Source: Planctomycetota bacterium (GTDB lineage Bacteria; Planctomycetota; Phycisphaerae; SM23-33). From it: 49,327 bases of DNA. Numbering within the stretch: position 1 is the stretch's first letter; each line of letters starts with the position of its first letter. The notes below the pieces were generated by a model. It ran no database searches, had not been told where the DNA came from, and saw nothing but the letters and a program-made list of their open reading frames with translations. Shown piece after piece: positions 7,332 to 25,384 of the stretch. The translations under genes were made by a program, and so were the position numbers. The stretch covers positions 1 to 49,327 of the forward strand of contig JAJRYB010000131.1 in NCBI GenBank assembly GCA_024275995.1. Reading direction: 5' to 3'.

Positions 7332-10331
7332 CTACTTTTCGGTGAGTTTCAGGGCGGGACGCCAGGAATCATCCGGCGGCGCGGAAATATACCCACGGCA
7401 CAGTTCGGCGTATATCCGCGCCGGCCCGTCGTTCGGAAGGATTTGGAGGACGACCTCGAACATTTCCACAGCGGCTGCGAAGCGCCGGTTGGCGTACAGC
7501 TCGACCGCGCGGGCGAAGTCGGCACACGCCTTGCGAACGGGTTCCTCGATATCCTCGCTGATGCCCAGAACGTTCCAGACGGAAACCGGCTCATGCTTTC
7601 CGACGACCAGGATGTCTCCGAGCGGGCGTGCGGCGTAATTTTCCGCACCGCGAGCCTCCCGCCACGTCTCGTGCGCCACGAGGATGTGCGTGCCGAACTG
7701 CTTGTTGGCGGATTCCAGCCGGCTGGCGAGGTTCACCGTGTCGCCGATGGCGGTGTAGTCCATCCGCGAGCTGGACCCGCAGTTCCCGACCATGACCTCT
7801 CCGGTAGCGATACCGACGCGCACCGCAAGTTGCGGTGGATCGTCGAACTCCTCGGCGAGTTCGGCGTTCAACTCCCGCACGGCCTGCTGGCAGTCGGCCG
7901 CGGCGTGTATCGAACGTGCGGCGTGGTCTTCCTGCACGACGGGCGCTCCGAACAGCACGAGCAGCCCGTCGCCGAGGAACTTGTTGACGTATCCCCCGCA
8001 GTGGTCCTGGATGACTTCCGTCATGTGATCGAAGTAATGATTCAGCAGTTGCACCGTTCGCTGTTCGCCAAGATTTTCCGAGAGGGTCGTGAACCCCTGC
8101 AGGTCGGAGAAGAAGCAGCTCACGACACGTTTCTCGCCGCCGAGGCGCGCCAGTGACGGGTCGCCGATAAGCCGGTCCACCAGCGCGGGCGACATGGCGT
8201 GGGCGAATATTCCCCGGATATGCCGCTTGGCGCGTTCTTCGGTCAGTTGGCGATACGCCGTAACCACCAGGAACCCCCCCAGCATCGCGACAAGCGGGGC
8301 GACCATCGGCATCCAGATGCTCCATTGCCCGAACACCACCACCGCGTTGAAGGCGACGTACGCAAGAGCGAGCAGGACCATGATCGGACCGGCCTGAAGC
8401 ACCGGACGTGTCGCGGCCAGCAGCGAAACCATCGCTCCGGCGAGCAGGACCACGAGCACGCCCGCTATCGGCGGCGTCCGACGGACGAAGGCGCCCGACA
8501 GGATGGTGTTGAAAATGCTCGAATGCACGAACACGCCGGCGGTTCGCTTGTGCACCGGCGTGGGAACGAAGTCCGCCGCTCCGGTCGCCGTCGAACCGAC
8601 GAAGCAGATTTTGTCCACCACGCGGGATCGCAGCTCGGCTTTCTCGCGCTCGACGTTCGCCAGGAGAAGTTTTACCTCGCCGCGCACCCGATCCACGTGA
8701 TCCAGTGTTTTCGTAACGTAGGATGCCCGTCGCTGATATTCCGCCAGTTCCCTGCGGTACTTCCGTGAGGCCTGATCGTCCCCGTCGGGGCGCGTGGCGG
8801 GCGCTTCGGGCTTGCCGAGGTACAGCCCCAGGCTTTCCGGGTCTCGCAGCTCGACGGAAAGGTCCGCCAACTCCCCGTCGATCCGCGCTTCGATACGGGC
8901 TTCCTCGATTCTCAGCTCGCTCACTCCCCGGGGCAGGTGCAGCGGATCGAACAACAGTGCGCGCTGGCGTCGCAACTGCAGCGCTACGCGGCTATCGTAG
9001 ATCTGCTGCGCGCGGGCGAACAGGCCCGCGACGCGATGAGCGGGCGGGCCGGCAGGATCGTCCGGCGAAGGGAACACGCGTCGGAGCAGTTCGAGATATT
9101 TCAGGCGGAGATAGCTGCGGTTCTTCCGTATCTTTTCCCGCAGCTGCCAGATCGTCACCACGGCGGAGGCGGGAATATGCTGCGGATACGCCTCGCTTGG
9201 CGATGTCCAGTTGATTTGCAGGTATCCGTCGGTGTCCACGGGAATGACGCGCTCGGTGCCGTCGGCGCAGAGAATCGTCACGTTCGATGCGTCCGCGCGG
9301 ATAGTGTAGCTGCCGCCGCGGGAACGCGCGAACTGGGCGGCGGCGATCGTCAGGGCGAATTGCGGGTATACCTGATCGCCGCTTCGACCGAGAAGCGGGA
9401 TGCGCCTCACGACGCCGTCGTCGTCCGGATCGAAAGTCACGAACCCGCTTCGACCTGCGGGCAAACTTTCGGCGAACAGCACCATCGGAGGAACGACGCG
9501 CCCAATCCGGGCGGGGTAGTTGACGGTCTCGCTCGCCGGAACGCTGAACTTTGGAAGAACCTTCATAGCACGATGCCGCAGGTACGCCCTGGTTACGATC
9601 TCACGTTCGGGCGTGTCCGACTGGGCGGACTGGCCCGGCAGCAGCGCCCTGCGGACGCTTTCGAAATCCAAACTGTCCGAAGAGTCCAGTATCGCCGCGA
9701 CACGGCGATCGATCGCGCGTTCCTTGGCGCGCTGGTACGATTCCTTCGCCTCCCGCGACGGCGCCACGCCGGAGGCGGAGAGCACCTCCTCATACGTCAG
9801 GCGCGGGCTGTCCCGCAGGACGGTTTCTAACTTCCGTTCGATGGAAGAAACCTTTTCGCTCAAAAAATCGAGGTGCATCGGCATGAAGACGTTGGGGTTC
9901 CGCAGCGCCGCGATGAGCCGGGCGTCGTCGAAGATAATCCGGCTGCCGCTTCCGAGCATCAATGACGTGCGCGCGTCGAGAACCGTCATCTTGTCCGAAA
10001 CGTGGCGCACTTCCTGCGGTTCCGGAAGAATGATATCGAGCGCCACCGCTCGAGCGCCGCATTCGAGAAGCGTATCGATGATGGCTGCCTGGGTCGCCCT
10101 CGGCCAGGGCCAGCGCCCCACTTTTTCCAGGCTCAGGTCGTCTATGTCTACGTGGACGACGACGTGGTTAGGCGGCGCGGTCGGAAAGTTCCGAAACCTC
10201 ACGTCCAGCGTCAACCATTCCAGGCGGTCGCCCAGGCCGAAGAGGAACCCTACCGCAACCACAAGCGTAGCAAGCAGCCCCAACAGCAGCGCGGAGATCG
10301 GACGCGACGTCCTGACTGGTCCTTCGGACAT
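7332..10331 (-). CDS. CHASE2-domain class III adenylate cyclase
   Basis: A 999-aa sensor enzyme. An N-terminal TM (about 14-35) leads into a long extracytoplasmic CHASE2 sensory domain (VHVDIDDLSLEKVGRWPWPR; later DKICFVGSTATGAADFVPTP). Three TM helices follow around 617-695, then a cytosolic cyclase domain: FFSDLQGFTTLSE (metal Asp, about 739), NKFLGDGLLVLFG (substrate Lys and second metal Asp) and DYTAIGDTVNLASRLE (transition-state Asn and Arg). The Lys/Thr pair at the purine-specifying positions matches class IIIb adenylate cyclases. The roughly 80-residue C-terminal tail looks helical, TPR-like. The start ATG is at 10329-10331. It follows two FecR-domain genes on the same strand, a known association, so those proteins may feed the CHASE2 domain. 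Confidence 0.92.
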   Translation of the reverse strand: MSEGPVRTSRPISALLLGLLATLVVAVGFLFGLGDRLEWLTLDVRFRNFPTAPPNHVVVHVDIDDLSLEKVGRWPWPRATQAAIIDTLLECGARAVALDIILPEPQEVRHVSDKMTVLDARTSLMLGSGSRIIFDDARLIAALRNPNVFMPMHLDFLSEKVSSIERKLETVLRDSPRLTYEEVLSASGVAPSREAKESYQRAKERAIDRRVAAILDSSDSLDFESVRRALLPGQSAQSDTPEREIVTRAYLRHRAMKVLPKFSVPASETVNYPARIGRVVPPMVLFAESLPAGRSGFVTFDPDDDGVVRRIPLLGRSGDQVYPQFALTIAAAQFARSRGGSYTIRADASNVTILCADGTERVIPVDTDGYLQINWTSPSEAYPQHIPASAVVTIWQLREKIRKNRSYLRLKYLELLRRVFPSPDDPAGPPAHRVAGLFARAQQIYDSRVALQLRRQRALLFDPLHLPRGVSELRIEEARIEARIDGELADLSVELRDPESLGLYLGKPEAPATRPDGDDQASRKYRRELAEYQRRASYVTKTLDHVDRVRGEVKLLLANVEREKAELRSRVVDKICFVGSTATGAADFVPTPVHKRTAGVFVHSSIFNTILSGAFVRRTPPIAGVLVVLLAGAMVSLLAATRPVLQAGPIMVLLALAYVAFNAVVVFGQWSIWMPMVAPLVAMLGGFLVVTAYRQLTEERAKRHIRGIFAHAMSPALVDRLIGDPSLARLGGEKRVVSCFFSDLQGFTTLSENLGEQRTVQLLNHYFDHMTEVIQDHCGGYVNKFLGDGLLVLFGAPVVQEDHAARSIHAAADCQQAVRELNAELAEEFDDPPQLAVRVGIATGEVMVGNCGSSSRMDYTAIGDTVNLASRLESANKQFGTHILVAHETWREARGAENYAARPLGDILVVGKHEPVSVWNVLGISEDIEEPVRKACADFARAVELYANRRFAAAVEMFEVVLQILPNDGPARIYAELCRGYISAPPDDSWRPALKLTEK

Positions 10332-19245: not shown

Positions 19246-20046
19246 ATGATCGGACGATTCGTCGGTAATCTGCATATCGCGCTGCGGGACTTTCTCGCCC
19301 GTCGGCTGGTGCGCATCGGCGTGACGCCGAACATGCTGACGCTTACCGGAATGGTAATCACCACGCTCATCGGCGTGTGCCTGGCGATCGGGGCCGGGAG
19401 CGATTTCGGCTGGAGCCTCTCGCCGGCGGCACCGGCGAATCTTTACCTGCTGATCGCGATGGTCCTGATGTGGCTGGCGTCGGCATGCGATATTCTCGAC
19501 GGCGCCGTCGCACGCCTCGCCGGTAAGTCCACCCGCTTCGGCGCTTTCCTCGACAGCACCCTGGATCGTTACAGCGATTTTGCGATCTACGCCGGTATCG
19601 CCGTTCATTACGCGATCATCTCGCCGGCCAACGCCACCTTTGTCCTCCTGTGCATGATAGCCTTCTTCAATGCGTTCATGATCTCCTACACGCGAGCACG
19701 AGCGGAAGACCTCATCGAGCGATGCAAGGTCGGATACTGGCAGAGGGGCGAAAGGTCGGCTGCGATTTTCATAGCCGTCCTGTCCTACAATATCCCCGCG
19801 ATGGTCCTCCAGCAGGCGCTGCTACCGGCGATCACGGTACTGCGACGGATTTTCTACACCAAGGCGGTACTGGAAGGCAAAACGCCGATCGAAGATCCAC
19901 GCCTCGGCCCGTGGTGGATGCGTATCCAGTTGTGGCGATATCGGCGAATGTCGCTTCCCTACGATATCGTCACTCTCGCCAACATCGCCTGGCTGCTCCT
20001 GGCCCGTTTCGAGGCGCGCGACGTGCTGCGGGAATGGTTCACCTAG
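19246..20046 (+). CDS. CDP-alcohol phosphatidyltransferase, probably phosphatidylinositol(-phosphate) synthase
   Basis: 266 aa integral membrane enzyme with about six TM helices. The full CDP-alcohol motif is present: D82-x2-D85-G86-x2-A89-R90-x8-G99-x3-D103-x3-D107, the metal and CDP-lipid site. The family moves a phosphatidyl group from CDP-diacylglycerol to an alcohol. Directly after ino1, the likely acceptor is inositol 3-phosphate, giving phosphatidylinositol phosphate as in actinobacteria. The acceptor cannot be proved from sequence; glycerol 3-phosphate is the main alternative. Its 3' end overlaps the convergent miaB gene by 8 bp. Confidence 0.88.
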   Translation: MIGRFVGNLHIALRDFLARRLVRIGVTPNMLTLTGMVITTLIGVCLAIGAGSDFGWSLSPAAPANLYLLIAMVLMWLASACDILDGAVARLAGKSTRFGAFLDSTLDRYSDFAIYAGIAVHYAIISPANATFVLLCMIAFFNAFMISYTRARAEDLIERCKVGYWQRGERSAAIFIAVLSYNIPAMVLQQALLPAITVLRRIFYTKAVLEGKTPIEDPRLGPWWMRIQLWRYRRMSLPYDIVTLANIAWLLLARFEARDVLREWFT

Positions 20047-21412
20047 CGCGCCGGCCGAACAGCGTCAGGCTTGTCGCGTCGTAAACCGAGACGTCCGCGT
20101 ATGTCCCGGCCAGCGAGTCCGGCCCGTCAAACACCACGATGTGATCCCACCTGCTCCTGCCGATGAGCTGCGTCTTGTCTTTTGTCGCCGGCGACGCCTG
20201 GCGATTGGCGCGCGGGGACGGTCCCTCCACCAGAACCTCCACCGTCCGGCCGATCATCGCGCGATGATGAGCCAGGGAAACTTCCGCCTGAACGGCGAGC
20301 AGCTCGTTGTTTCGGCGTTTCTTGACATCGAGGGGAACGTCGTCCGCGAGCCTGCGGGCCGCCGTCGTCCCGTCGCGCGGCGAGTACTTGAAGATAAAAG
20401 AATTCTTGAACCCGCTGCGGCGGATAAGCTCCGCCGAGGCTGAGTGATCCTCTTCCGTTTCGCCGGGAAAGCCCACGATGAAGTCCCCCGCCAACACGAC
20501 CGACGGTACTATCGCCCTGGCGCGGGCTATGAAATCGTCGTACTCGCTGCGGGTGTATCCGCGGTTCATCGCGCCGAGAACCCGGTCCGATCCGCTCTGG
20601 GGCGGGCAGTGAATGTACTCGCATACGTTCGGCAGGTCGCGCATCGCCTGGAGAATATCGTCGTCGAAGCCCACGGGATGGCTGGTTACGAATCGAAGGC
20701 GTCGCAGACCCCCGATCGGCGAGAGCATGCCAAGCAGGTCGCCGAATCGCACCGTCCGCCCACCGTCGGAAAAGTTGTAGCTGTTGACGGTCTGGCCGAG
20801 CAGCGTTATCTCGCTTCGCCCGGTATCGACGAGCCGGCGAACCTCCGCGGCGACGTCCTCGGGGCGACGGCTCGTTTCCGGCCCGCGCACGAAAGGCACA
20901 ATGCAATAGCTGCAAAACTTGTCGCACCCCCGCATTACGCGAACGTACGCCTGACTCGCGCTCGGCACGAGATCAGCGTCGCGCGCAGAGTCCAGCGACT
21001 CGATATCCGCGCCGCTTTTGCGTTCGCCCCGACGTGGATCGAGAGCGACGCGCCCCTGTCCCGCTCCCGCTTCCGCAATAAGATCCCCCAGTTCGTGCAG
21101 GCGTCCCGGCCCGCAGACGATGTCCACACATGCGTATCGCTTGCGAAGATCGTCGCCCAGGCGCTGCGCCATGCACCCCAGCACGCCGACGATCATCCGC
21201 CTGCCCCGGCCACCGCGATGCATCTGTTCGCCAAGGCGCGAGTGGACCTTCTCCTCGGCGTGTTCGCGGACCGAGCAGGTGTTGTAGAGCACCACGTCGG
21301 CGCCGCGCCCGTCGCGGACCATCTCGTGCCCGGCCTGGACGAGCACGGACGCCACCAGCTCGCTGTCCAGGCGGTTCATCTGGCAGCCGAATGTCTCCAG
21401 GTATACTTTCAT
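20039..21412 (-). CDS. miaB: tRNA-2-methylthio-N6-dimethylallyladenosine synthase
   Basis: 457 aa methylthiotransferase. The N-terminal UPF0004 domain has its three cluster cysteines (C10 in TFGCQMN, C46, C80), the radical SAM core has CDKFCSYC (163, 167, 170), and a C-terminal TRAM domain follows (RTVEVLVEGPSP to the end). HCPPQSGSDRVLGAMNRGYT matches MiaB rather than MtaB or RimO. It adds the 2-methylthio group to i6A37 of tRNAs reading UNN codons. The ATG at 21412 begins MKVYLETFGCQMN, the family N-terminus. Confidence 0.93.
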   Translation of the reverse strand: MKVYLETFGCQMNRLDSELVASVLVQAGHEMVRDGRGADVVLYNTCSVREHAEEKVHSRLGEQMHRGGRGRRMIVGVLGCMAQRLGDDLRKRYACVDIVCGPGRLHELGDLIAEAGAGQGRVALDPRRGERKSGADIESLDSARDADLVPSASQAYVRVMRGCDKFCSYCIVPFVRGPETSRRPEDVAAEVRRLVDTGRSEITLLGQTVNSYNFSDGGRTVRFGDLLGMLSPIGGLRRLRFVTSHPVGFDDDILQAMRDLPNVCEYIHCPPQSGSDRVLGAMNRGYTRSEYDDFIARARAIVPSVVLAGDFIVGFPGETEEDHSASAELIRRSGFKNSFIFKYSPRDGTTAARRLADDVPLDVKKRRNNELLAVQAEVSLAHHRAMIGRTVEVLVEGPSPRANRQASPATKDKTQLIGRSRWDHIVVFDGPDSLAGTYADVSVYDATSLTLFGRRAR

Positions 21413-21486: not shown

Positions 21487-21558
21487 TTCCGGCTGGAGAT
21501 AGTAAGCTTCACGGAAGCTGTTCGCCGAACGTCGGCACGACACCAAAAGGAGGTTTTG

Positions 21559-23310
21559 GTGAGTCCGTCCGCGGAAAACCGCAATAGTGGCAAGGATCCC
21601 AAGCGGCTTTACACCGCCTACCAGGTAGCCGACCTGCTCGGCGCGACCCCGGGCGCCGTAATGGACTGGATGCAGAAAGGCTGGCTGCCTTACAAGCGCC
21701 TGCCGGACGGTCCTGTCCGTATCAGCGAGAAAGGTCTGCTGAAGTTCCTTAAAGGTCGCGGCGTCGCAATCGAGCTGGTGATGGCGAAGGCGGTCCTGCG
21801 CGATCAGGAGCGCCGCCGGAAGCGCGGCGAATCGCCCGATACGCCTCTCGCGAACGCCAAGCCGCTGCCGCTGCCCGCCTTCGTAACCGCAGCCGCCGAA
21901 CACCAGCCCGAATCGGAGGAGGCCCAAACCATGAAAACGCACGACGAACCGTTTCGCGACGACGCTAAGCTGCGCGATGACGTAACGGACTTGGAATCCG
22001 AAGCGCTGCTGGAGATGGAGGCCTCTCCGATAAACCAGCCGCCGGAGGAAATGGACCTCGGGCCGATAGACGTGGACGAAGAATACAGGAAAGTCTCCGA
22101 CGACGAGCGGATCGATACTGCCGAACCCGCGCCGCCGCCCGACAGCGCCGCTGCGCAGGTGGCGGATGCTATTCTCCGGGACGCCGTTTCGAGCGGCGCG
22201 TCGCACGTGCACCTGTCCGCCGGCGAGCAGGGGCTGGACCTGCGGATGCGGATTCGCGGTGTGCTGCATGAAAAACCGACCTTCAGGGATCGCCTTCCGA
22301 AAGGACTGGCGCCGCAATTGATCGGGCGCCTCAAGTCGCTGGCGTCGCTGGATGGCGAACCTGTCCGCAGCGCGCGGAGCGGCGGGTTTACCGCGGCCGT
22401 CGGCGGCAAAAACGTCGAGATGCAAATGAGCGTGCTGCCGACCGACGATGGCGAGAAAATGGTCATCCGCCTGCCCCGCGCGGCGGTGGAACTGATGAGC
22501 CTCGCCGAACTGGGCCTGGGCGGCGCGGACGAAGCCGACCTCCGCGCGCTGCTCGCGCAGGAGTCCGGGCTTATCGTGCTTGCCGCCCCGCCGAGAAACT
22601 GCGCAAAGGCGACGCTGCTTGCGATGCTGGAGGAAATACGAACCGCCGGGCGCAACGTAGTCACCCTGGAAAAGACCATCGCCGGGCAGATCGCAGGCGC
22701 CGCAAGAACGCGGGTGGACGTTCACGGCGGGCTGTCGTTCGCCGAGGCGTCGGCAGCGCTGGGCGAGCAGGACGCCGACGTTGTTCTGATAGAGGAGTTG
22801 CGAGATCCGGCGACGGCGGCGGAGGCGGTGGAAGCGGCAGTGGACGGCGCGCTGGTGCTTGCGTCCATGCGGGCAAGCAGCGCGGTCTCCGCCGTGAGCG
22901 ACCTGCTCGAAATGGGCATCGAGCCCTGGCCGCTGGCATCCGTGCTGCTGGCGGTCGTCGCGCAGCGATCGGTAAGGAAACTTTGCGACGTCTGCAAGAA
23001 GCCCCTCGAACCTGACGCCCAGAGCCTCGCCGCGGTCGGCTTGAAACTCTCCGAGACGGACGGTCCGATTTTCGGCCCGCTCGGCTGCGACAAGTGCGCC
23101 AAGACCGGATTTTCCGGACGAATCAACCTCTTCTCGATGCTGCGGACCGGCCCGTCCGTCATGGCTGCGATCCGTCGGGCATCGGAGCCGGACGTTCTGC
23201 TGGAAGCTGCGAGGCAATCCGGAGCGAAATCGCTGCAAAGCGCCGCGCGCGAAGCGATCCTCGCCGGTAAAATCAGCCCCGCCCAATGCCGCCGCGCTCT
23301 GGCGCGGTGA
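21559..23310 (+). CDS. Xis-like HTH protein fused to a degenerate PilB/GspE-type ATPase
   Basis: 583 aa. Residues about 18-70 form a MerR/excisionase-type winged helix (LYTAYQVADLLGATPGAVMD; PVRISEKGLLKFL). About 85-195 is an acidic, Pro-rich linker. About 198-584 has the fold order of type II secretion/type IV pilus ATPases, but catalytic motifs are eroded: the Walker A place reads APPRNCAKATLL instead of GxxGxGKTTT, the Asp box reads TLEKTIAG, and the His box reads LVLASMRASSA. The Walker B place keeps DVVLIEELRD. The zinc tetracysteine (CDVC 477-480, CDKC 511-514) is intact. GTG at 21559 is used, with AGGAGG 5 nt upstream. No pilus genes adjoin it. A DNA-binding regulator or non-hydrolysing assembly factor is more likely than a secretion motor. 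Confidence 0.8.
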   Translation: MSPSAENRNSGKDPKRLYTAYQVADLLGATPGAVMDWMQKGWLPYKRLPDGPVRISEKGLLKFLKGRGVAIELVMAKAVLRDQERRRKRGESPDTPLANAKPLPLPAFVTAAAEHQPESEEAQTMKTHDEPFRDDAKLRDDVTDLESEALLEMEASPINQPPEEMDLGPIDVDEEYRKVSDDERIDTAEPAPPPDSAAAQVADAILRDAVSSGASHVHLSAGEQGLDLRMRIRGVLHEKPTFRDRLPKGLAPQLIGRLKSLASLDGEPVRSARSGGFTAAVGGKNVEMQMSVLPTDDGEKMVIRLPRAAVELMSLAELGLGGADEADLRALLAQESGLIVLAAPPRNCAKATLLAMLEEIRTAGRNVVTLEKTIAGQIAGAARTRVDVHGGLSFAEASAALGEQDADVVLIEELRDPATAAEAVEAAVDGALVLASMRASSAVSAVSDLLEMGIEPWPLASVLLAVVAQRSVRKLCDVCKKPLEPDAQSLAAVGLKLSETDGPIFGPLGCDKCAKTGFSGRINLFSMLRTGPSVMAAIRRASEPDVLLEAARQSGAKSLQSAAREAILAGKISPAQCRRALAR

Positions 23311-23383: not shown

Positions 23384-23428
23384 CGTATCGGGCTTCCCAC
23401 GCATTGAAATGAAAGGTTGAAGCATACA

Positions 23429-25384
23429 ATGGCCGACTACAAAGACCTGGACCGCAAGGTCATTAGGCTTGGAAAACAGATCGTCAGGATGTGCACCGAG
23501 GCGGGTAGCGGACACCCATCGAGCGGGCTGAGCATTCTGCACATGACGGCTGCGCTTATGTACCGCGTGATGCGTTACGATCCGAAGAACCCCTGGAGCA
23601 GCTCCGCCGACCGCCTGGTGCTGAGCGAAGGGCACGCGGTCCCCGCGGTCTACGCCGCCTATTGCGACCTCGGCGGCGTTGTCGGAACGCCCCAGCGACC
23701 AAGCCAGTTGAGCTTCGACGACGCACTGACGCTCCGCGCGGCAGACAGCGTGCTGGACGGGCATCCCAATCCCGCCATCGGATTCCCCTTCTTCGATGCA
23801 GCCACCGGCTCGCTCGGACAGGGCCTTTCCGTCGCCGCGGGCGTGGCGTGCTCGGCAAGATTGGACGAAACGGACCGGAAGGTCTACTGCATCGTCGGCG
23901 ACGGCGAAAGCCGGGAAGGGCAAATCTGGGAGGCGCTGGATTTCATCGTCGATCACAAACTTACGAACGTCGTGACCATCTTCAACGCCAACGGGCAGGG
24001 ACAGAGCGATTACGTCTCCACCCAGCAGTCCTCCGACGCCCTGATCGCCAAGCTGACGGCGTTCGGGATGGACGTGAAGGTGATCGACGGTCACAACTGG
24101 GACGAGATTTTCGCCGCACTGTCAGCCGAGGCTGCGGACAAACCCATTGCGATCGTCGCCAATACGGTCAAGGGCTGGGGCGTCAAGGAATTCCAGGCGT
24201 CGAACTATCATGGAAAGCCGCTGGCGGGCGATCAGCTTGCTTCGGCGATGGCGGACCTGGACGCAAAGGCGGTGGAACTTGGCGTTGCGGACGCCGAAGA
24301 CACCCCGGCGATACAGGTGACCATCCCGGCCGAGCCAACCAAGGCAGCGCCGGAAGGTGAGATTTCGGCAGGCTCCTTCGCCGATGCGCTAATCGCCAAC
24401 GGTATGGCCGACGCGCTCGAGGAGAAAAAACTCTCCCCCCGCCGGGCGTACGGGGCGGCACTTGCTGCGATGGGTAGCGACGAGCGAATCGTCGCGATGG
24501 ACGGAGACGTGAAGAACTCCACCTTCGCGACCTTCTTCGCCGAGCAGCATCCGGAAAGATACTTCGAAGCGCGCATCGCCGAGCAGAACATGATCTCCGC
24601 CGCGGTCGGTCTGGCGCAGACCGGAAAGATTCCGTTCGTCTCCAGCTTCGCGAAGTTCCTCGTCCGCGCGTACGACCAGTTGGAGATGGCCGTCATCACC
24701 AACGCCAACATCAAGCTGTGCGGTTCGCACGCCGGGGTGTCGCTGGCTGCGGACGGACCCAGCCAGATGGGCCTTGTGGACCTTGCGTTCATGCGAAGCT
24801 TCGCACGCACGACGCGCGTAGACGGACAGCCCGCCTGCCGTTTCTTCCAACCATCCGACGCCGTCGGCGCCTTCAAGCTGACCGAGCTGATGGCCAATAT
24901 CGACGGGATGTGCTACATGCGGACGCACCGGCCCGACGTGCCGCTGCTCTACGAGGAAACCGAGCAGTTCACCGTCGGCGGGTTCAAGCATCTTGCCGAC
25001 GGCGAGGATATCGCCATCGTCGCCGGCGGGTACATGGTGCACGTCGCACGAGAGGCGATGGAGATCATCGAGGAAAAGGCCGGCCTGTCCGCCAGCCTGG
25101 TGGACGCATATTCGATGCCGCTGGCGACCGAGGAGATACTCCGGATCGGCGACGACTGCCGCGGGCAGATTCTCGTCGTCGAGGACAACTACTCCGGTGG
25201 AATCGCCGACGAGCTGGCCGCCGCCGCCGCCAAGAGCGACCTGGGCGTAATGGTCCACTCCATGTACGTCAGTGACATCCCCAAGAGCGCCCGGACACCC
25301 GAAGAAACGCTCCGGATGGCGCACCTGTCGCCGGAAGACATCGCCAACACGGTCCAGAAAATATTCGACAAGTCGGAAGGATAA
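23429..25384 (+). CDS. tkt: Transketolase
   Basis: 651 aa, full-length fused form. It moves two-carbon units between sugar phosphates in the pentose phosphate pathway, using thiamine diphosphate. Signatures: AGSGHPSSGLSI near the N-terminus, LSEGHAVPAVYA, the TPP motif GDGESREGQIWEALD, the pyrimidine-domain DGDVKNSTFATFF and the C-terminal domain VVEDNYSGGI. The ATG at 23429 gives MADYKDLDRKV, a normal start; a TTG 12 bases earlier is the only alternative. The gene ends 71 bp from the convergent esterase gene. Confidence 0.94.
   Translation: MADYKDLDRKVIRLGKQIVRMCTEAGSGHPSSGLSILHMTAALMYRVMRYDPKNPWSSSADRLVLSEGHAVPAVYAAYCDLGGVVGTPQRPSQLSFDDALTLRAADSVLDGHPNPAIGFPFFDAATGSLGQGLSVAAGVACSARLDETDRKVYCIVGDGESREGQIWEALDFIVDHKLTNVVTIFNANGQGQSDYVSTQQSSDALIAKLTAFGMDVKVIDGHNWDEIFAALSAEAADKPIAIVANTVKGWGVKEFQASNYHGKPLAGDQLASAMADLDAKAVELGVADAEDTPAIQVTIPAEPTKAAPEGEISAGSFADALIANGMADALEEKKLSPRRAYGAALAAMGSDERIVAMDGDVKNSTFATFFAEQHPERYFEARIAEQNMISAAVGLAQTGKIPFVSSFAKFLVRAYDQLEMAVITNANIKLCGSHAGVSLAADGPSQMGLVDLAFMRSFARTTRVDGQPACRFFQPSDAVGAFKLTELMANIDGMCYMRTHRPDVPLLYEETEQFTVGGFKHLADGEDIAIVAGGYMVHVAREAMEIIEEKAGLSASLVDAYSMPLATEEILRIGDDCRGQILVVEDNYSGGIADELAAAAAKSDLGVMVHSMYVSDIPKSARTPEETLRMAHLSPEDIANTVQKIFDKSEG

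Follow-up and report, generated by a model that had tools for sequence, protein, structure and literature searches.

A PilB/GspE-fold protein with eroded ATPase motifs and an N-terminal helix-turn-helix domain in one planctomycete lineage

Assembly motors of the PilB/GspE group are usually studied as ATP-driven engines, and their parts are customarily named N2D, Walker A, Asp box and His box. Flagellar control in this group of planctomycetes has, to our knowledge, been little studied. Pilus parts can enter flagella elsewhere: the flagellar motor of Campylobacterota reuses FcpMNO and others, according to one report (PMC11870540). We found no paper on a fusion of a helix-turn-helix (HTH) domain to GspE in the open-licence literature. 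Here we analyzed such a fusion, HTH-pseudoGspE, encoded in a planctomycete contig of 49,327 nucleotides (the window, meaning the whole stretch of DNA analyzed).

The gene is a single uninterrupted frame, of 584 codons when counted from a TTG at 21556 in the open reading frames of the window. A Shine-Dalgarno-like AGGAGG lies 5 nt from a GTG at 21559 versus 2 nt from the TTG. Because its spacing to AGGAGG is better, we favor the GTG, the start also adopted in an earlier sequence-only reading. The gene, its flanks and its domains, with residues numbered from TTG 21556, are as follows.

21548 to 21553, + strand: AGGAGG, Shine-Dalgarno-like, by sequence reading
21559 to 23310, + strand: HTH-pseudoGspE gene, GTG start preferred, in-frame TTG at 21556, 583-584 aa
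21607 to 21759, + strand: HTH_17 winged-helix domain, residues 18-68, by Pfam and fold model
21841 to 22134, + strand: acidic linker, predicted disordered, approximately residues 96-193, by AlphaFold2 model and charge
22144 to 22470, + strand: N2D-like domain, residues 197-305, by AlphaFold2 model and structure comparison
22498 to 23307, + strand: degenerate PilB/GspE ATPase lobe, residues 315-584, by Pfam and structure comparison
20039 to 21412, - strand: flanking gene for MiaB (TIGR01574, above cut-off)
23417 to 25384, + strand: flanking gene for transketolase

We make no claim that either flanking gene belongs to the system; a transketolase gene (74% identical) also adjoins the HTH-pseudoGspE gene of G011. 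Elsewhere in the window, positions 7332 to 10331 (- strand) encode a CHASE2-adenylate/guanylate cyclase protein of 999 aa.

Profile and structure comparisons agreed with the proposal that a PilB/GspE fold had been fused to an HTH. The window protein matched the Pfam family T2SSE (PF00437) over residues 200-574 with 199.5 bits (8.3e-59; cut-off, 24.9), placing it within the wider family, and it stayed below the curated NCBIfam cut-offs for GspE (TIGR02533, 259.1 bits versus 630.25) and PilB (TIGR02538, 221.7 bits versus 675.65). The HTH_17 match was weaker (2.1e-4) and, at 21.9-25.8 bits, below the cut-off of 27. In an AlphaFold2 model (mean pLDDT, 76.8), the HTH and the core are ordered, and the linker between them, at about residues 96-193, has low confidence. 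The structures in the PDB nearest to the modeled core were PilF, PilB and GspE, the best being PilF 5oiu (Z 34.5 over 384 residues, rmsd 5.0), and in the model both the N2D and the CTD fold are present.

We surveyed related genomes with a profile of the HTH alone. Of the 35 genomes in the window's GTDB family, 19 carry HTH-pseudoGspE, at 21 places; members scored at least 76.9 bits and the next matches at most 61. The sub-threshold matches that were inspected (G000:C28, in the window's own genome, and G012:C70) are HTH proteins some 200 aa long, the first being the following.

L129:1397-1960, + strand: HTH_17-response regulator protein (G000:C28)

Most of the 35 family genomes contain HTH matches comparable to it in size and score. 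The distribution of the fusion is restricted. In a class sample of 397 genomes, 22 had a match at E <= 1e-15, namely the same 19 plus three of family f12, and in a phylum sample of 392 genomes only the window's genome and G502 (60.9 bits, in a 207-aa frame) matched. A scan of 84,980 named species by peptide patterns, which reach near relatives only and may have left the window's own record outside the scan, returned 14 loci, all from planctomycete metagenome-assembled genomes titled Phycisphaerae, Phycisphaerales, Planctomycetales or Planctomycetota. In phylogenetic trees, the members made up one side of a 100/100 branch, both with the HTH included (40 rows) and with it excluded (38 rows, the core-only tree omitting also the long-branched G002 and G000:C79).

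We compared the catalytic and zinc motifs across the alignable members. In the window protein, they lie at these positions.

22585 to 22611, + strand: Walker A position, APPRNCAKA where the ordinary sequence is GPTGSGKTT
22666 to 22686, + strand: Asp box position, LEKTIAG where the ordinary sequence is SEDPVEY
22771 to 22806, + strand: Walker B, DADVVLIEELRD, Glu kept
22861 to 22881, + strand: His box position, ASMRASS where the ordinary sequence is TTLHTND
22984 to 22995, + strand: first CxxC of the tetracysteine motif, kept by motif alignment
23086 to 23097, + strand: second CxxC of the tetracysteine motif, kept by motif alignment

The motif columns bear out the reported loss of the key Walker A, Asp box and His box residues, with the Walker A Lys of the window protein sitting one column off. 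The tetracysteine and the order of the elements, also reported as kept, are so in the alignment, where both CxxC pairs are present. The motif table and the trees draw on the 21 member places in 19 genomes and omit three entries: G005, whose frame is interrupted by a run of N, G032, whose C terminus, near a contig end, is unlike the others, and G034, which is in two contig pieces; the entry G029b is one piece of a gene presumed split over two contigs. Among the 18 members in the table, Walker A (GxxxxGK[ST]) is intact in one (G014), the Asp box and the His box are each present in none, and the tetracysteine is kept in 16, the window protein included. The Walker A Lys column holds Arg in 12 of the 18, and the Walker B Glu column holds E in 10, D in 7 and K in 1. 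By comparison, all 21 ordinary paralogues in the same table have Walker A, Asp box and His box intact; a 22nd, G000:C79, was set apart from these controls as itself degenerate. Since the erosion is common to the whole clade and the 21 ordinary paralogues are intact, it is not a matter of chance.

That 22nd paralogue, the second degenerate T2SSE paralogue of the window's own genome (G000:C79:3463-5115, - strand; L042), adjoins a PilT-like gene, has hydrophobic stretches at its N terminus and reads SRGGNGLTS at Walker A, LESKPTI at the Asp box and LGIPASD at the His box.

The sequence-only reading held that relatives with an intact Walker A would point to recent decay. One such relative exists: G014 has GPPRSGKST at Walker A, yet its Asp and His boxes are gone and Asp replaces the Walker B Glu. 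Judged by these motifs, G014 is an outlier inside a pseudo-ATPase clade and not proof of recent decay.

Members evolve under purifying selection, with dN/dS of 0.23-0.39 in six comparisons within two genera (for comparison, FliK 0.40 and FlgE 0.17-0.19); the subdomain extremes were up to 0.58 for the HTH alone, with very few changes, and one linker value of 0.56. Mean pairwise identity was highest for the HTH (0.52) and lower for N2D (0.37), the lobe (0.35) and the linker (0.20). The survey supports what had been proposed, a pseudo-ATPase family that is conserved and has gained an HTH: it is found in 19 of 35 family genomes as one clade under purifying selection and with motif loss throughout. 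The family evolves fast, with long branches and a patchy presence, and two genomes have lost the lobe (see below), which would suit a decaying duplicate under relaxed selection and with no present function. We regard this as very improbable, given the dN/dS range, the lack of an internal stop in any of the 18 motif-table frames, the retained HTH and cysteines, and the repeated operon placement described below. A pseudogene or recent decay was ruled out by the dN/dS range together with the clade-wide motif loss.

The N-terminal domain had been called excisionase-like, and this label is fair as far as the model goes: the structures nearest to the HTH model are the winged-helix proteins BldC (Z 8.7; 29% identity over 56 residues) and Pukovnik Xis (Z 8.5), while a Foldseek search with the HTH model gave no match at E <= 0.001. 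HTH_17 matched in 15 of 15 members when the N termini were scanned alone (E up to 0.1), and in G056 of family f12 its score exceeds the cut-off. In each of 17 rows, the linker carries a negative charge, between -1 and -44. The net charge of the HTH ranges from -1 to +6 across members, and a simple DNA-binding reading is weakened for those members whose HTH has no net positive charge. From the model, the HTH would bind DNA or a partner.

Two genomes of family f12, another family of the class, encode shorter forms of 234-236 aa.

L163:501-1208, + strand: HTH + N2D protein without the ATPase lobe
L165:7328-8029, - strand: HTH + N2D protein without the ATPase lobe

Because the lobe is absent from these two genomes (G056 and G082), HTH and N2D may be the essential parts of the protein. 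Both lobe-less genes are convergent with a conserved flgL/TPR-like cluster, at 0.4-0.5 kb from the TPR-like gene. In the third f12 genome, G088, the gene was read in three frames that were not joined; its lobe appears frame-shifted, and the contig is too short for a neighborhood.

Member genes are repeatedly placed beside flagellar hook or filament genes. The gene lies just before fliK-flgD-flgE in G022, G028, G034 and G014 (fliK of G014 being identified from its position); in G014, genes for flagellin, CheA and CheB also lie upstream. In G008, where Pfam confirmed FliK, FlgD and FlgE, the gene precedes them by about 2 kb. In G025, a flagellin-family gene that we take to be flgL and a TPR-like gene are followed by a gene of 124 aa, with which the member gene shares an overlap of 4 bp. 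In G027, the member gene comes after flgL, a TPR-like gene and a small gene, from which further genes separate it. Within flgD-bearing genomes, 7 of 16 members lie at most 20 kb from flgD (5 of the 16 at most 5 kb), compared with 0 of 25 ordinary paralogues (p = 5e-4), in a test devised after the pattern had been seen and with a control that counts paralogues at E <= 1e-90 only, leaving weaker ones uncounted. Counted by genus, 5 of 12 have a member at most 20 kb from flgD (p ~1e-7 against a simple expectation of 40 kb in 3.5 Mb). The remaining 9 of the 16 members, some on short contigs, are not near flgD; they include the window's own copy, which is distant from the flagellar genes of its genome (C108 and C50). 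Right after flgE, L048:10250-11407 (+ strand) encodes a protein of about 386 aa that matches PilZ, with relatives in L085, L045 and L041.

Co-occurrence pointed the same way, by p values that ignore kinship and follow the trial of several markers. FlhA was found in 18 of 19 member genomes and 10 of 16 non-members (p 0.032), FlgD in 15 and 6 (p 0.018), flagellin-type proteins in 16 and 7 (p 0.03), and FlhA or FlgD in 19 and 10 (p 0.005). HTH-pseudoGspE is not needed for flagella, as 10 family genomes have FlhA without it. Conversely, G010 (90% complete) has the gene and lacks FlgD and flagellin, as do G018 and G020 at lower completeness. Many family genomes carry two FlhA-like genes of clearly unequal score, and some have only the lower-scoring type, with no FlgD or flagellin matches; the lower-scoring type is possibly a second export system.

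Upstream of fliK, we found a repeated palindrome, GGAAGAWTCTTCC, together with a sigma-54 promoter (TGGCAC-N5-TTGC), one or two GGAAGAWTCTTCC-like palindromes lying approximately 100-150 bp upstream of the promoter (L044, L048, L085, L045, L041, L174, L178, L179, L180, L181 and others). Counting palindromes with up to 2 mismatches and a sigma-54 site about 100-150 bp away, the pair occurs in 11 of the 12 member genomes with an upstream region (not in G000); member genomes G029, G016 and G005, whose upstream stretch is too short, fall outside this count. It also occurs in 3 of 6 flagellated genomes without the gene (G021, G030 and G015), and of the others G006 has palindromes with no sigma-54 match and G017 and G023 have no palindrome. 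We therefore dropped the palindrome as a binding site of HTH-pseudoGspE. Because it is also found in genomes without the gene, we tentatively assign it to a flagellar sigma-54 activator, of which it is probably the enhancer; genes for sigma-54 activators lie near fliK in G000 and G027. In these two genomes the flagellar promoters already have such an activator at hand, which counts against HTH-pseudoGspE as a regulator of flagella. A footprint comparison upstream of fliK, members against gene-less controls, found no member-specific binding site.

These results bear on whether the protein controls flagellar genes as a classical DNA-binding transcription factor, in which the pseudo-motor would only multimerize and so align several HTHs on DNA. 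The flagellar neighborhood, the conservation of the HTH above all other parts and its closeness to DNA-bound BldC and to Xis speak for such a factor, but the HTH charge is low or negative in some members, no member-specific site was found, and the palindrome and promoter before fliK occur without the gene too. On balance, we find this doubtful.

The core could instead act on the pilus side, as an inactive subunit that holds PilB/GspE hexamers back by joining or capping them, with a protein-binding HTH and the flagellar neighborhood a secondary matter. Such a role would draw on the PilB fold kept in the core and on the 14 T2SSE matches in the window's own genome, and a non-hydrolyzing PilB can signal: a Walker A mutant of PilB alters exopolysaccharide output, according to a review (PMC11656802). 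However, among the neighbors that we listed and labeled by eye, no member lies inside a pilus operon; the conserved neighbors, where there are any, are flagellar; and two genomes lack the lobe. Pilus operon membership was rejected on those same listed neighbors, and we consider a pilus-side modulator unlikely.

The reading that we put forward, at about an even chance, is that the protein is a pseudo-motor exapted for flagella, where it would work as an oligomeric adaptor or regulator. One planctomycete lineage would have reshaped a paralogue of the PilB/GspE assembly motor, exchanging the customary N-terminal domain for a winged helix of the BldC/Xis type that sits on a flexible, acidic linker. 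The core has lost the residues for ATP hydrolysis but is under selection and, in the model, still folded; it would hydrolyze no ATP and could serve as a platform for oligomerization and partner binding, while the HTH would bind DNA or a protein. The whole protein may then regulate flagellar production, or act in it as an adaptor, and possibly couple that production to the pilus motors of the same cells. The earlier proposal of a regulator or scaffold is plausible. A more specific version, to which we lend only limited credence, is a motor turned into a non-hydrolyzing, DNA-tethered flagellar switch, whose core would sense or join pilus motors while its HTH alters flagellar expression or the placement of the locus. 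If true, this would be a direct molecular link between the pilus and flagellar programs. A clade in which the fold was retained while the catalytic motifs were lost and an HTH was added would be a clear instance of an engine reused for signaling or scaffolding, and its flagellar neighborhood offers a testable link between the two main bacterial motility machines.

Compared with PilB/PilF and GspE/EpsE, the family has the same N2D and RecA-like lobe fold, the same order of elements, the Walker B Glu in 10 of 18 members and the tetracysteine in 16 of 18. It differs in that Walker A (in all but one member), Asp box and His box have been lost, an HTH and acidic linker replace the N-terminal domain, the window protein scores far under the GspE and PilB cut-offs of NCBIfam, and member genes adjoin flagellar rather than pilus operons where a pattern exists. 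Like BldC, Xis and MerR-type HTH_17 proteins, it has a predicted winged-helix fold, with 29% identity to BldC, but here the HTH is tethered to a PilB-fold core, its charge is variable and its DNA binding is predicted only. The HTH_17-response regulator proteins of the same genomes (such as G000:C28) carry the same HTH family at the N terminus, but they have a receiver domain instead of the pseudo-motor and score at most 61 bits against the HTH profile, versus at least 76.9 for members. As in the Campylobacterota motor, type IV pilus components would have been exapted to flagella; whereas the Campylobacterota parts come from PilMNO, PilP and PilQ and build scaffolds of the motor (PMC11870540), the planctomycete protein is a homologue of the cytoplasmic motor ATPase with an HTH. 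What is new, by its sequence, is a T2SSE-fold protein that lacks the defining catalytic features of PilB/GspE motors and has an HTH added.
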